DNA from: Bartonella bilalgolemi
Lineage (GTDB): Bacteria; Pseudomonadota; Alphaproteobacteria; Rhizobiales; Rhizobiaceae
Length of the DNA: 64,000 nucleotides
Direction of reading: 5' to 3'
Assembly (NCBI RefSeq): GCF_023500045.1
Contig: NZ_JAMCOF010000002.1
Span: 1-64,000, forward strand
How positions within the stretch are numbered: the stretch's first letter is position 1; the number at the start of each line of letters is the position of its first letter. Positions 19,896 to 62,217 of the stretch are shown here, piece after piece. A program made the position numbers and the translations under genes. The notes under the pieces were generated by a model. It made no database searches. It was not told the DNA's origin and saw nothing but the letters and a program-made list of their open reading frames with translations.

Positions 19896-21557
19896 TTACA
19901 TATTTTGATAAACGGGTCCTTCATTTCCCTGTGGACAGATCCAATGAATGTTTTGATTAGGATCCTTTATATCACAAGTTTTGCAATGTATACAATTTGA
20001 AGCATTGATCATATAAGTTTCATGATCATCATGTTTTATCCATTCATAGACAGCGGCAGGACAGTAGCGTGTCGAAGGACCTCCATAGACTGCATATTCA
20101 GAGTTTTTTTGTTTTTCTATGGAAATTACTTTGAGATGGCAAGGTTGGTTCTTTTCGTGGTGTGTATTTGAAAGAGCTACACTAGAAAGACGATCAAAGG
20201 TTACAACACCATCTGGTTTAGGATAAGCAATGGGGTAAAATTTTTCCTCTGGTTCAAGACATGCATAGTCTTCTTTTTCATGAGGAAGTGTTCTAAACAA
20301 AGAGAAATGGAAAAATTGTTGCCACCATAAATCAAAACCCGCTAGCATGATACCGTATTTGGTACCGTATTTTGCCCAGAGTGGTTTAACATTTCGTACT
20401 GTATAAAGATCTTTGCCAATAGGACCTTTGCGCCAGTGGTCTTCAATTTCTGTAACTTCATCATGGGCACGACCTTGGGTAAGAGCTGTGGCGATTCTTT
20501 CAGCCGCTAATATGCCAGATAACATAGCATTATGTGAACCTTTGATACGAGGTACATTGACAAAACCGGCAGAACAGCCAATAAGCGCTCCACCAGGAAA
20601 AGTAAGTTTTGGAACAGATTGCCATCCTCCTTCACTGATGGTGCGTGCACCATAAGCAAGACGTTTTGCGCCTTTAAAGAGCTCGTAGAGTTTAGGATGC
20701 GTTTTAAAACGTTGAAACTCTTCAAAAGGAGAGAGATAAGGGTTTTTATAGTCTAAATGCACGACAAAACCAACGGAAATTAAATTTTCTGCTTGGTGAT
20801 AGAGAAAACCTCCACCACCAGTATAATTATCCAATGGCCAACCAACGAAATGTTGAATTAAACCGAGCTGGTGTTTTTTAGGATCAATTTCCCATAGTTC
20901 TTTAAGTCCGAGAGCAAATTTTTGTGGTTCCCTATCTTTGCTAAGATTAAATTTTTGTATGAGTTGTTTAGCAATGGAGCCACGTGCTCCTTCTGCAATC
21001 AGGGTATATTTAGCCAATAAAGCTGTTCCTGGTACATAATTTGTTCCGGGAGTTCCATCTTTTTTAACACCCATATCTCCTGTAAGGACACCAATAACAG
21101 CTCCGTGATCATTGCAGAGGATATCGGATACTGGAAAGCCAGGATAAATTGCAACACCCAATTCTTCAGCTTTTTTGCTTAGCCAACGACAGACGTTTCC
21201 AAGTGAAACAATATAGCAACCATTATTTGATAAAATTGAAGGGCGGAGAATATTAGGAAAAATTTGCTCATTGTGGGGTGTGAGCAGAAAAAGTTGATCG
21301 CTACTAACAGGCGTTGTAAAGGGGTGGTTTTGCTCATTTCTCCATTCTGGCAAAAGTGTATCGATACCAATAGGGTCAATGACTGCTCCTGACAGAATAT
21401 GAGCTCCAATTTCTATACTTTTTTCAAGCATTATAATAGAAAGTTCAGGATTGATCTGTTTTAAACGGATAGCAGCAGAAAGTCCTGCTGGCCCACCACC
21501 TACAATGACGATATCGCATTCTATAGTTTCATGCTGGGGATGTATCTCTGTACTCAT
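19896..21557 (-). CDS. Electron transfer flavoprotein-ubiquinone oxidoreductase
   Basis: A 553-residue membrane-associated enzyme passing electrons from ETF to ubiquinone. The FAD-binding VIVGGGPAGLSAAIRL is near the N-terminus, with the ubiquinone-binding/central domain including the GGWQSVPKLTFPGGALIGC segment. The C-terminal 4Fe-4S motif, CIHCKTCDIKDP...WICPQG, is intact. The ATG at 21557 is chosen because an upstream extension overlaps etfA and lacks homology. It is the third gene after etfB and etfA on the same strand. ETF-QO reduces ubiquinone, relevant to the decayed bc1 operon later in the window. Confidence 0.95.
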   Translation of the reverse strand: MSTEIHPQHETIECDIVIVGGGPAGLSAAIRLKQINPELSIIMLEKSIEIGAHILSGAVIDPIGIDTLLPEWRNEQNHPFTTPVSSDQLFLLTPHNEQIFPNILRPSILSNNGCYIVSLGNVCRWLSKKAEELGVAIYPGFPVSDILCNDHGAVIGVLTGDMGVKKDGTPGTNYVPGTALLAKYTLIAEGARGSIAKQLIQKFNLSKDREPQKFALGLKELWEIDPKKHQLGLIQHFVGWPLDNYTGGGGFLYHQAENLISVGFVVHLDYKNPYLSPFEEFQRFKTHPKLYELFKGAKRLAYGARTISEGGWQSVPKLTFPGGALIGCSAGFVNVPRIKGSHNAMLSGILAAERIATALTQGRAHDEVTEIEDHWRKGPIGKDLYTVRNVKPLWAKYGTKYGIMLAGFDLWWQQFFHFSLFRTLPHEKEDYACLEPEEKFYPIAYPKPDGVVTFDRLSSVALSNTHHEKNQPCHLKVISIEKQKNSEYAVYGGPSTRYCPAAVYEWIKHDDHETYMINASNCIHCKTCDIKDPNQNIHWICPQGNEGPVYQNM

Positions 21558-21561
21558 GTTT

Positions 21562-22491
21562 TTACAAGGCTTTTTCCAGTTCAGGAATAATATGATGAAG
21601 ATCACCTACGAGAGCGTAATCAGCAATATGCATAATGGGAGCCTCCTTGTCATTATTAATAGCAACGATGGTTTGTGCATCCATTATTCCAGCCAGATGT
21701 TGGATGGCTCCGGAGATTCCAATAGCAATATAAAGTTTAGGAGCAACGACTTTTCCTGTTTGTCCGATTTGCCAATCATTAGGGGCATAGCCTGCATCGA
21801 CTGCTGCTCGGCTTGCTCCTAAGGCAGCTCCGAGCTTGGTTGCAAGCGGCAAAAGTAGTGCTTTAAACTGCTCTTCCGAACCGAGACCTCGTCCACCTGA
21901 TACAATAATGTGTGCTGAAGTAAGATCTGGACGATCACTTTTGTTTATTTCTTCCTTGACGAAGAAAGAAAGATTTGGGTTAGGAGCTGGCGTTATTGTT
22001 TTAATAGGGGCAGCATTTCCTTTGGATGTTGGCGGGAAAGAAGCCGTACGTACTGTTATAATTTTTTGACGATCATTTGTGCGTACGGTTTCAATAGCAT
22101 TACCAGCATATATTGGTCGTTTGAAGGTATCAGAGGCGACAACAGCAATAATGTCTGAAATTTGCATGAGATCAAGAAGAGCAGCGACGCGTGGCATGAC
22201 ATTTTTTCCAGTTGTTGTTGAAGCTGCTATGATCACATCATAAGTGTTCGCTTGTTCAACAATTGTGGCTGCTATGGGCTCAGCTAATTGATGTGCTAAA
22301 TAATCAGCTTCGGCAACAAGTACCTGCCGAACGCCAATCAATTGAGCACAGTTTTCAGCAATAGCATGAACCTTCATTCCACAAACGAGAATGTCTATAT
22401 CGCTACCAATTAATTGAGCCGCAGTGAGAGCTTTCGCTGTTTCTTGTGCTAAGGAATGGTTATTGTGTTCAGCTAATAAAAGAATTGCCAT
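21562..22491 (-). CDS. etfA: Electron transfer flavoprotein alpha subunit
   Basis: A 309-residue FAD-binding subunit. The C-terminal FAD domain is clear: SGGRGLGSEEQF, GASRAAVDAGYAPNDWQIGQTGKVVAPKLYIAIGISG and GAIQHLAGI, then INNDKEAPIMHIADYALVGD. The partner etfB is upstream and ETF-QO begins 4 bases downstream. The set feeds electrons from acyl-CoA and amino-acid dehydrogenases into the quinone pool. Confidence 0.96.
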   Translation of the reverse strand: MAILLLAEHNNHSLAQETAKALTAAQLIGSDIDILVCGMKVHAIAENCAQLIGVRQVLVAEADYLAHQLAEPIAATIVEQANTYDVIIAASTTTGKNVMPRVAALLDLMQISDIIAVVASDTFKRPIYAGNAIETVRTNDRQKIITVRTASFPPTSKGNAAPIKTITPAPNPNLSFFVKEEINKSDRPDLTSAHIIVSGGRGLGSEEQFKALLLPLATKLGAALGASRAAVDAGYAPNDWQIGQTGKVVAPKLYIAIGISGAIQHLAGIMDAQTIVAINNDKEAPIMHIADYALVGDLHHIIPELEKAL

Positions 22492-58864: not shown

Positions 58865-59341
58865 TTATAAGGTTTGTCTTATTTCATTATAACCAATTTG
58901 ACGAAGTGCTTCCCCTGTTGTCATAGCAACACTTATTGCAAGATTTAAAGAGCGTGCGTTTGGCAGCATAGGAATTGTTAAGGCATAATCAGCTGCTTTA
59001 TAAACATAATCAGGGACACCTGCTGATTCACGGCCAAAAAGTAAAACATCGTTTTTCTGATAACATATTTCTGTATAATACGTTTTTGCTTTTGTACTTA
59101 AGAGCAAAAGACGACGGTTAAAGCGCTGCATGGTATCAATAAAATTCTGCCAATCAAGATGGCGTTCTAAGGAGGCTCGTTCAAGATAATCCATACCTGC
59201 ACGTTTAAGATTGCGATCGGATAGATCAAAGCCTGCAGGTTCAATAATGTGTACATGCAGACCAAAACAAGCACTAAGACGTAAGATTGTTCCTGTGTTA
59301 CCAGCAATATCAGGTTGAAAAAGAGCTATGTGAAGTGTCAT
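58865..59341 (-). CDS. trmL: tRNA (cytidine(34)-2'-O)-methyltransferase TrmL
   Basis: A 158-residue minimal SPOUT methyltransferase acting on the wobble base of tRNA-Leu isoacceptors. QPDIAGNTGTILRLSACFGLHVHIIEPAGFDLSDRNLKRAGMDY is the family start; LLFGRESAGVPDYV and IPMLPNARSLNLAISVAM are knot motifs. In rhizobia this gene stands beside petABC, which here are pseudogenes. Confidence 0.94.
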   Translation of the reverse strand: MTLHIALFQPDIAGNTGTILRLSACFGLHVHIIEPAGFDLSDRNLKRAGMDYLERASLERHLDWQNFIDTMQRFNRRLLLLSTKAKTYYTEICYQKNDVLLFGRESAGVPDYVYKAADYALTIPMLPNARSLNLAISVAMTTGEALRQIGYNEIRQTL

Positions 59342-59533
59342 ATTTAGTATTTGTAGATTGATTTATAAAGAAGTTATTTATAGCGATAGTGATATCAAAG
59401 AGATAGTTTTTATTTAGCTATACAATAGAACACAATTAGAATATGCGAAAATATTTTTTTGAAGGTCACTTTTATGGTGCAAAAAGATAGGAAATAAAGA
59501 ATTGAAATCAGTAAGATGTATGTGAGATGAAAA

Positions 59534-60075
59534 TAAAATGATTCATAGATTTTTTTATTTTTAGCAACAGGTGTTGCTGGTATGGTGAAGGTTGGTGCAG
59601 TTACATGTCTTTTATTAGTCAATTGCATCCTGATCAAGCTGTTTAATCTACTGATTCTATTGAAGTTTGATCTATCGAGTATTGAAGAAGGCATGTCAGT
59701 GACGGTAAAATGACGTGGATAGAGCGTGTGGTCATTCGTAATCGTACTGCAAAAGAAATAGCTGAATCTCAAGTGATTAAATTGAGTGATCTTAAAGCCT
59801 GTCAAGTACGCAATCTTGACCTTAATAATAAAAAAACAACGGATTTTGCGTGTTCAGCAGGAAAGAGACGTGGAAATTGGTTGATTATAATCAATTTATG
59901 TACTTATCTGAGCTGTGTAACACTTGACCGATCAGGTCAATTTTATGAATGGTTGTGTCCTTGTCATTGATCTGTTTATGATACATCTGGAAGGATATGA
60001 GCAAAATCAGCTAATTACAATTTAGCCATTTCACTTATCAATTTCTTTCTGGTGCTTTACTGAGAATAGGATAAT
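59534..60075 (+). pseudogene. petA: petA, Rieske iron-sulfur subunit of bc1 (decayed)
   Basis: Rieske protein fragments are readable in several frames. FLFLATGVAGMV (about 59552) matches the signal-anchor region, and SFISQLHPDQA and DLSSIEEGMSVTVK follow. The longest open part (59710-59970) holds the cluster-binding CTYLSC and CPCH. TGA stops replace the expected residues in the K-W-R-G segment, after CPCH and after DTSGRI. Sequence up to NYNLAIS is recognisable, so only point changes and small indels have occurred. The intact gene would be about 180 residues. Confidence 0.9.
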
Positions 60076-60078
60076 GTA

Positions 60079-60876
60079 ATGAGGAAATTTTTTCCTTATC
60101 TTCCTGAAAGCGCTCTTGCTCGTTGGTTTTATAAGCGTTTGCCTCTTTCTCATTTTTTATAAAATATGTTTATAGTTTTTCCTGTTCCATATAACCTTAA
60201 TTATTTTGATACATTTGGTGCTATTTAAACCATTATAGCTTTTGACAGGTATTGTATTAGCTATGCACTATGTATCAAATGTTTATTTAGTCCTTGAAAT
60301 AGGTGAATGATAGAGGCGTGAAGGGCAGTTTGGTTAGCTTTTTAGTCCTAGGTATTCTATGGTATCTTCTTTTTTTATTGCTGTCTACATCCATTTAGCA
60401 CGAAGGCTTTATTATGGTTCTTATACAAATATGCGAGAAATGATTTGGATGATAGGTATCTTCGTTTATATCATTATGATGATGGTTGCATTTTGGGTTA
60501 TGTGTTGATGAGGGCGGTGATGTCCACTTTTCCAGCATTGGTAATTACTGGTTTTTTTAAAGTTATTCCTTTCTTTGAAACATAGTGCTATGAAACTCTT
60601 CTTGGTGGTAGTATGGGGCAGCCGACGCTTAACCATTTTTATGTTTTTCATTATGTGCTGTCGTTTTTTATTTTTTCTTATAGACCTTCATATTTGGGCA
60701 ATTTACCAAGTTGGACAGAGCAATCTAACAGGAATTGAAGTGCAATCGATGAGGAAAGTGTTCCTTTTTCTCCTTATGCACTTATCAAAGATATTTTTTT
60801 GATTATTCTACCAATTATACTCTCTGTTGAAAAGAGAAGCTCTATGCCTGCTTCAATTATGGAAGATCTAAAATAG
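60079..60876 (+). pseudogene. petB: petB, cytochrome b of bc1 (decayed)
   Basis: Begins at the ATG of MRKFFPYLPESALARWFYKRLPLS, then broken. Later blocks in other frames are typical of cytochrome b: GIVLAMHYVSNVYL, FFIAVYIHLARRLYYGSY (the haem-ligand histidine region), MIWMIGIFVYIIMMMVAFW, LHIWA and PFSPYALIKDIF. About half of the normal 400-430 residues can still be traced; the rest is deleted or scrambled by stops such as TAA in the first 25 codons. It lies between petA and petC remnants in normal order. Confidence 0.9.
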
Positions 60877-60890
60877 AGAACAAATCGACT

Positions 60891-61686
60891 ATGATAAGGG
60901 CCTTTGTTGGATTGATCTTCATAGGAGTTATGACGTTTTCTTTTCAAAGCATTGCCAAAAATATTGTTGATAAGAGAGGATATGTTTTTTCCTTGTATGT
61001 GCCTCAAAGACAAGATTGGAATTTTTCGGGACCATTCGGTATTTATGATAAAGCGCAATTACGACGTAGGTTGAAGGTTTATAAAAAAATGTGCTAGTTG
61101 TCATAGGTTAAAATATGTATCTTTTCGTGATTTAAAGGTACTGGGTGATAACCAGGAACAAATTAAAGCTTTTGCTGTGCAATATGAAGTAAGCGATAGT
61201 CCTAATCGGGAAGAAAAGTTTTTAAAGAGATTTGGTTCTGGTATTGTATTAGATTATTTTCCTTTCTCTTTTGCTAATATTGAAGAAGCCAAATTTATAC
61301 ATAATGGTGCTGAACCTCCTGATTTATCGTTAATGGAATGTATGCGTTCTATTTCTTTACTATTCCCTGCTTTTGATTATTGATGTTTTGACCAATGATA
61401 ACACTGCTAGTCTTGATTATATTACAGCTCTTTTAACAGGACATCAGAGGGCTCCAAAGGATAAAGAATTGCTGAAGGTTACTGGTATGATCCTTATTTT
61501 ATTGTAGGTGATGTTTTGTCTATTTTAATGTGTATAGTTAATCCTCATATGGATTTTAGTAAGAGGACTGGCTTTTGTGTTATCTTATTTTTAATTATTT
61601 TGGGAGTGCTTGTTTATAGTATGAAAAGAAGAATTTGGTATAATTTAGATAAAGAAAAACAAAAAATGAAAAAAATAAACACATAG
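60891..61686 (+). pseudogene. petC: petC, cytochrome c1 of bc1 (decayed)
   Basis: A signal-peptide start (MIRAFVGLIFIGVMTFSFQS) is followed by QDWNFSGPFGIYDKAQLRRRLKVYKK. A frameshift falls in a run of seven A residues (61083-61089) directly before the haem motif CASCH; the next frame then reads RLKYVSFRDL and NGAEPPDLSLM to a stop at 61383. Further frames give SLDYITALLTG, WYDPYFIVGDV and the C-terminal anchor FLIILGVLVYSMKRRIW. Roughly 30 residues appear deleted after WYDPYFIVGDVLSI. Confidence 0.9.
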
Positions 61687-61770
61687 AATAAGCTATCTTA
61701 AAAGCGTGTAGGGAACAAATTTTATAATGATGCATTGAGAGTTTATAAAGTAAAAACGGAGAATTATAAA

Positions 61771-62217
61771 ATGAAAAAAATTGTTTGCACTGCTTTCGTG
61801 TCAATTTTTATGGTTTCTGGTGCGTATGCTCAGTCTTTTACAACGACAACACCTTTTGAAACTGAGGTGATTTCATCAACAGGTATTGTACGGGTTGGTT
61901 CAGATATGGCCGCGCGTTATATTACGCCTTCAGCAGCTGATTTTGTTGCTTCAAGCCTTATTGGTGCTAATGTATACAATATGGAAGATGAAAGTATTGG
62001 TGAAGTAAAAGATATTATTTTACGTGAAAATAGTGTCGAAGGAATTGTCATTGGTATTGGCGGTTTTCTTGGTATAGGAGAACGTTATATAGTTGTTTCT
62101 CCTGATACAATTCAGAAAACAAATGATTATGGTAAATGGAAATTTATTATCAATGCAACAAAGGATTCCTTAAAAAGCGCTCCAGAATTTAAATATGAAG
62201 GTCACTGGAATCGTTAA
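61771..62217 (+). CDS. PRC-barrel domain protein, secreted
   Basis: A 148-residue protein with a signal peptide (about residues 1-21, ending AYAQS). A PRC-barrel spans about 65-140: LIGANVYNMEDESIGEVKDIIL, ENSVEGIVIGIGGFLGIGERYIVV. GGAG lies before ATG 61771; the upstream extension to 61735 is inside the petC remnant region and lacks a signal. The protein is intact although its left neighbour is a pseudogene. It likely acts in the periplasm; role unknown. Confidence 0.88.
   Translation: MKKIVCTAFVSIFMVSGAYAQSFTTTTPFETEVISSTGIVRVGSDMAARYITPSAADFVASSLIGANVYNMEDESIGEVKDIILRENSVEGIVIGIGGFLGIGERYIVVSPDTIQKTNDYGKWKFIINATKDSLKSAPEFKYEGHWNR

Follow-up and report, generated by a model that had tools for sequence, protein, structure and literature searches.

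A broken cytochrome bc1 operon in Bartonella bilalgolemi raises the question of where the ubiquinol of this organism is oxidized and what has become of the cytochrome c that the bc1 complex would otherwise reduce, both in this species and in the genus as a whole. In the standard respiratory branch of Alphaproteobacteria, electrons pass from the bc1 complex to CycM and from CycM to an aa3 oxidase. Here, we have analyzed a window of 64,000 nucleotides from B. bilalgolemi (contig NZ_JAMCOF010000002.1), whose genome (G000 among the 71 Bartonella genomes compared) is a 36-contig draft of 1.607 Mb (1,606,969 bases) with a listed completeness of 100%. A first-pass annotation of the window had described petA, petB and petC as a complete set of pseudogenes lying in the normal order beside trmL at 59534-61686.

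This description was borne out, and the coordinates were right to within tens of bases. Using the intact PetA, PetB and PetC of genome G012 as tblastn queries, we located the three remnants at 59552-61674, in the normal order between trmL and a PRC-barrel gene, with stops and frameshifts in all three genes. The frameshifted petA remnant (Rieske protein; 59552-60048, forward strand) was matched in two pieces (E values of 8e-39 and 1e-5) with six in-frame stops, and in its first Rieske cluster box CTHLGC has become CTYLSC, a change of the ligand histidine. The petB remnant (cytochrome b; 60079-60876, forward strand) was covered from 60079 to 60799 by two overlapping pieces (best E value of 1e-36; 16 stops), its end at 60876 being the position of a stop, and still matched PF00033 with 31 bits and eight stops in a profile search. 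About 417 bp are missing from it, with the junction at 60794/60795 (forward strand) in an alignment with G015, G041, G036, G014 and G042; residues from about 246 to 384 are gone, including the site of PEWY, the motif of the quinol oxidation site. The petC remnant (cytochrome c1; 60891-61674, forward strand) carries frameshifts and an 87-bp deletion and was matched in two pieces (best E value of 1e-55; seven stops), and by PF02167 with 74 bits and seven stops. As the annotation had stated, the motifs CPCH (petA), YIHLAR and CASCH (petC) are readable amid the stops in three-frame translations of 59530-61700. Comparison of the region from trmL to the PRC-barrel gene with that of the intact G015 revealed 28 indels, some of them upstream of petA, and 18 were not a multiple of three. 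A profile search of the whole G000 genome identified no cytochrome b or cytochrome c1 elsewhere, and hence not the second petABC set that the annotation had wished to see looked for. All three frames that a functional bc1 complex requires are thus broken in G000, one of the two Rieske boxes is altered and the PEWY site is deleted, and what is left keeps the gene order and flanks of an intact operon, as petABC pseudogenes should. In themselves, such pseudogenes are ordinary reductive evolution.

The flanks allowed the same place to be recognized in other genomes. On the left, trmL (58865-59341, reverse strand) is intact and has a match in all 71 genomes; on the right, the PRC-barrel gene (61771-62217, forward strand) is an intact open reading frame for which 32 of 33 loci were Bartonella, and its protein is 97% identical to that of Bartonella sp. 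AR 15-3 (G041) and 93% identical to those of both B. clarridgeiae (G014) and B. rochalimae (G036). We checked the corresponding stretches of the 23 genomes with a broken or undetected cytochrome b and of three intact ones: trmL adjoined the pet locus in 25 of the 26, the PRC-barrel gene lay on the opposite side in 23, and both flanks were present in 20 of the 23 decayed or empty stretches and in all three intact ones (within the stretches taken, there was no PRC match in G002 and G018 and no trmL match in G032). The distance from trmL to the PRC-barrel gene was 3373-3680 bp in the three intact copies, 2830 bp in G042, 2430 bp in G000, 2217 bp in G041, 1664 bp in G014 and 1083 bp in G036, and the pet locus was almost erased in G007 (which we take to be B. 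bacilliformis KC583; 454 bp) and G008 (475 bp). A few genomes with lesions were near full length at this locus (for example, 3780 bp in G034). The decay sits at the ancestral place of petABC.

The annotation had also proposed reading this locus in related strains, and doing so showed that B. bilalgolemi is far from alone. Cytochrome b was open in 48 of the 71 genomes, broken in 10 (G000, G001, G009, G014, G023, G032, G034, G035, G041 and G042) and not found in 13, that is, broken or undetected in 23. A quick tree of 58 genomes, built from cyoABC, ccmBC and acnA and rooted with G063 as outgroup, divided the remainder into a group of 15, all without bc1 (support of 85, drawn open), and a group of 42, which we take as 'lineage 4' and in which eight genomes were without bc1. 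At least seven changes in bc1 were needed on this tree, a count that by itself does not distinguish gain from loss; that the operon returned to exactly its former position is not plausible. It should be noted that G034 has a single TGA in petB and that G009 is a 390-contig draft; leaving out both, the tree count was six. We conclude that bc1 was dropped about seven times in Bartonella, or six to eight times depending on G034, G009 and a separate loss in the lineage of the window, which would make the number eight, or seven without G034 and G009. The median genome size was 1.6 Mb for the 23 genomes without bc1 and about 2.15 Mb for the 34 intact genomes discussed below (rounded sizes, kinship ignored). 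Among the matches listed, open-access titles and abstract openings reported neither bc1 loss nor an absent cytochrome c oxidase in Bartonella; in the portion of PMC4013037 consulted, supplementary figure S1 is described as including this genus.

The lesions themselves provided information on the age and number of losses. In the alignment, one petB stretch was absent from all five genomes of the lineage of the window (G000, G014, G036, G041 and G042; little of petB remains for alignment in G036), which suggests that cytochrome b had already been inactivated in their common ancestor. The annotation had called the loss fairly recent; this holds only in comparison with genomes in which the locus is almost erased. 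A 2-bp petB deletion found in G042, G000 and G041 was rejected as a marker of the loss, as it falls within a run of T and is absent from G014, the sister of G042. In G042, petC is still open (a frame of 295 residues) next to a broken petB, which suggests that the loss of bc1 in this lineage was independent of that in the other members of the group of 15. Elsewhere, G022 (presumably B. henselae Houston-1) and G023, as aligned, have no lesion in common within the pet genes, though each has one petB deletion that ends at a shared position, and the sister genomes G018 and G034 share no coding lesion, petAB being heavily decayed in the former and petB interrupted by one in-frame TGA in the latter. 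Both pairs may represent separate losses. The deletions also bear on whether the stops and frameshifts could be sequencing or assembly errors, a concern raised by the draft state of G000 and a possible one for G034 and G009. In G000, G041 and G036, the large petB deletion has an identical right end and left ends no more than 4 bp apart as aligned, and such agreement among three separate assemblies makes an assembly error unlikely. As many genomes also show decay at this locus, 8 of the 23 being listed as single-contig, we consider this explanation extremely improbable.

How quinol is oxidized in G000 could be answered directly. The annotation had pointed to an intact electron-transferring-flavoprotein:ubiquinone oxidoreductase (ETF-QO) and had reasoned that a quinol oxidase would be needed, and both points were upheld. 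ETF-QO is open (19896-21605, reverse strand) and has its ubiquinone-binding and Fe-S domains (PF05187 and PF21162; 19899-21557 scanned). All of cyoABCD is open, CyoB and CyoA scored above their NCBIfam cut-offs (1058 versus 1020 bits and 286 versus 266 bits, respectively), and CyoA lacks the CuA cysteines, as expected of a bo3 ubiquinol oxidase. Therefore, quinol can be oxidized directly. A profile search found no cydA in this genome, which excludes a bd oxidase as its outlet. Across the genus, cydA was present in 10 of the 71 genomes, with an open frame of 525 aa in nine and of 471 aa in G063, whereas the survey of bd oxidases in PMC5322542, in the part consulted, names B. tamiae as the only member of the Bartonellaceae with such an oxidase.

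The fate of the cytochrome c branch was less simple. A CyoB-type protein (open frame of 646-681 aa) was present in 70 of the 71 genomes and was the only standard heme-copper oxidase found; it was not found in G057, which is 86% complete. The COX2 profile matched in 68 genomes, and these matches were taken as CyoA by their place beside cyoB (on another contig than cyoB in G058, and duplicated in G051 and G052); among the three negative genomes (G021, G035 and G057), tblastn recovered cyoA in G021 and G035. No CuA-type subunit CtaC was found in any of the 71 genomes with this profile, which is barely sensitive for CyoA (matches of 20-28 bits, and none in three genomes) and with which CtaC would presumably score far above CyoA. 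The CCP/MauG profile for cytochrome c peroxidases had no match in the 71 genomes (its control was positive in 2 of 14 named genomes), and the PF13442 matches listed for the 57 genomes without a CtaD-like COX1 all lay within the cytochrome c1 gene. We also surveyed CxxCH motifs in 668,553 bases of G000 (41.6%; 81 of 134 DNA matches, open reading frames of at least 60 aa), in which CycM was the sole credible cytochrome c. The other longer matches, which were scanned, proved to be LptD, RlmN and a protein that combines an intracellular-delivery domain with a Fic match slightly below the cut-off; a further one was DnaJ, named by its N-terminus, and four short ones lay beneath longer open reading frames.

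The remaining candidate was a CtaD-like COX1 of 496-523 aa in 14 of the 71 genomes. It could be read in 12, namely G003, G013, G043, G044, G045, G056, G057, G058, G059, G060, G062 and G063 (the proteins of G004 and G061 failed the motif filter); the carriers are bee-gut-type and G063-type genomes. Thus, a cytochrome c oxidase might be present but unrecognized, either as this protein or as an undescribed enzyme common to all genomes. CtaD was indeed the best NCBIfam model for the two CtaD-like proteins scanned, the next gene in the four loci with genes listed is one that we take to be heme O synthase, and all 14 carriers have an open cytochrome b, with a stop-free cytochrome c1 in 13 of them (none was found in G062, whose cytochrome b match lies near a contig end). 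However, the two proteins scanned reached only 274 and 328 bits against the CtaD cut-off of 671, and in alignment with CyoB the histidine pair of CuB was replaced by N-D, S-D or Q-D in all 12 that were read. There was no COX2 besides the presumed CyoA in the 71 genomes, and the CtaD-like protein is absent from 57 genomes, 34 of which have petABC. The oxidase and peroxidase families were searched by profile, and undescribed kinds would escape such a search; on balance, we regard an overlooked oxidase as quite unlikely. Neither a CuB-bearing COX1 other than CyoB nor a CuA-bearing subunit II, as expected of an aa3 or cbb3 cytochrome c oxidase, was found in the genus, and for the families searched the cytochrome c branch has no recognizable terminal oxidase in all 71 genomes. 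The view of this locus as a case of respiratory chain reduction was therefore incomplete, as even an intact bc1 has no known outlet in this genus.

A bc1 complex without a recognizable electron outlet explains why its loss is tolerated, but it leaves unexplained the purifying selection on petABC in the 34 genomes that keep the operon open and have no CtaD-like protein as a second COX1. In these genomes, omega was 0.079 for petA, 0.102 for petB and 0.136 for petC, values similar to those of cyoA (0.112) and cyoC (0.082), cyoB being at 0.042. In bee-type genomes it was 0.068 for petA and 0.055 for petB (13 genomes) and 0.081 for petC (12 genomes, G056 being dropped for the stops inside its aligned region); neither these sets nor the motif alignment included G062. 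Thus, petB and petC are under somewhat looser constraint in lineage 4 than in bee-type genomes. As a control, the decayed pet copies of the lineage of the window gave 0.35 for petA, 0.56 for petB and 0.54 for petC. These values are below 1 since the copies were still intact along part of their branches and stop codons were excluded, and omega was thus used as a contrast and not as an absolute test. We also observed that petB of G015 (L174) encodes an uninterrupted cytochrome b of full length in which PAWY replaces PEWY, petABC being otherwise kept.

What the annotation had not foreseen was the persistence of cytochrome c and of most genes for its maturation. The matched domain of CycM was free of stops in all 71 genomes, and both CxxCH and PGTxM were present in all 54 in which they were read. 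It has a PF00034 match above the cut-off and, in G000, a hydrophobic N-terminus, as expected of a class I cytochrome c, and its best solved relative is cytochrome c 4dy9 (E value of 1e-24); it is of mitochondrial type. The portions of CcmF and CcmC that matched likewise contained no stop in any of the 71 (the CcmF frame of G045 is shorter, at 413 aa). A 505-aa open frame with CcmC was rejected as a fusion, as it seems to read through a TGA. In G000, ccmABC, ccmEFHI and cycM are open and ccmD is fully covered in the comparison without a stop, so that its decay was ruled out. The exception is ccmG (L088:2086-2690 of G000), which encodes the thiol-disulfide protein of cytochrome c maturation and is decayed in G000, G041 and G036, but not in G014 and G042; a complete Ccm system (system I) is thus no longer present in G000. 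In addition, ccmG of G017 has one stop in the aligned stretch, and that of G048 has 76% coverage.

Selection on CycM was measured in the same way. Its omega was 0.159 in the 15 genomes of the group without bc1 and 0.156 in the three without ccmG (G000, G041 and G036), in which part of the branches may predate the ccmG loss; it was 0.185 in intact lineage 4 (30 of the 34 genomes) and 0.223 in the eight genomes of lineage 4 that lost bc1. For comparison, CcmG and CcmC had values of 0.234 and 0.188, respectively, in intact lineage 4. These results bear on the main rival explanation, a staged dismantling in which the cytochrome c oxidase went first, then bc1 and then ccmG, with cycM and the other ccm genes to follow, so that CycM would be functionless and simply not yet decayed. 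Such an order is consistent with the uneven decay of ccmG among the five genomes, the open petC beside a broken petB in G042 and the smaller genomes of species without bc1. On the other hand, CycM and CcmF are free of stops in every genome, even those in which the pet locus is almost erased (G007 and G008), and an omega of 0.159 for CycM stands against 0.35-0.56 in the decayed pet copies. It appears that a functionless CycM is possible but unlikely. For the lineage of the window, either CcmG is bypassed or the cytochrome c branch is now failing. If CcmG is needed for heme attachment, CycM of G000, G041 and G036 may remain immature, and selection in the past may account for its low omega.

Our preferred explanation, which we consider probable, joins a dispensable bc1 side branch, quinol oxidation by Cyo and a CycM with a further donor and acceptor. 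Dehydrogenases and ETF-QO would reduce ubiquinone, and the bo3 oxidase CyoABCD would oxidize the quinol; the ETF-QO and cyo genes were identified here, and the flux through them is deduced from their presence. The terminal oxidase for cytochrome c would have been lost before the genus radiated, leaving bc1 as a side route to CycM that could be dropped. CycM and most of its maturation genes outlive bc1, under purifying selection as judged from omega. CycM would pass electrons to an acceptor beyond the recognized ones and, in species without bc1, would also receive them from such a donor, and in lineage 4 bc1 probably feeds this further route too. In G000, with ccmG also decayed, the cytochrome c branch may be fading further. 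The cytochrome c kept in Bartonella without bc1 thus probably has a further job. To a more specific proposal we give an even chance: that CycM is a hub, with bc1 as a dispensable, repeatedly lost member of a set of at least two donors and with an acceptor outside both the heme-copper cytochrome c oxidases and the CCP/MauG peroxidases.

Several known systems resemble parts of this arrangement. Compared with the alphaproteobacterial branch from bc1 through CycM to aa3, Bartonella has the same petABC order and a mitochondrial-type, membrane-anchored cytochrome c, but no CtaC, no CuB-bearing CtaD-like protein among the 12 read and no CCP/MauG. Host-restricted bacteria show reductive pseudogene decay with stops, frameshifts and deletions, a shrinking locus and small genomes. 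The lesion types are the same here, and Bartonella differs in that the partner cytochrome c and most maturation genes are kept. The closest precedent is Zymomonas mobilis, for which PMC4148688, in the part consulted, describes bc1 and c-type cytochromes with a quinol oxidase and no recognizable cytochrome c oxidase gene, and whose authors consider the route from bc1 to oxygen still to be elucidated. The likeness lies in bc1 and cytochrome c without a cytochrome c oxidase but with a quinol oxidase; the differences are the bd oxidase and cytochrome c peroxidase of Zymomonas and, in Bartonella, bo3, a lack of CCP/MauG matches in the 71 genomes and natural bc1 losses with cytochrome c kept.

The surprising part is therefore not the pseudogenes but a cytochrome c under selection without a recognized reductase or oxidase. 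The lesson of this pseudogene set is that, here, losing complex III need not take the cytochrome c branch with it. If selection acts on bc1 and cytochrome c in a genus without a recognizable oxidase or peroxidase for cytochrome c, the current catalogue misses an acceptor of cytochrome c. About seven natural losses of bc1 with cytochrome c kept turn the isolated puzzle of Zymomonas into a comparative test, and the mix of Bartonella species with and without bc1 makes the hidden acceptor searchable by comparative genomics.
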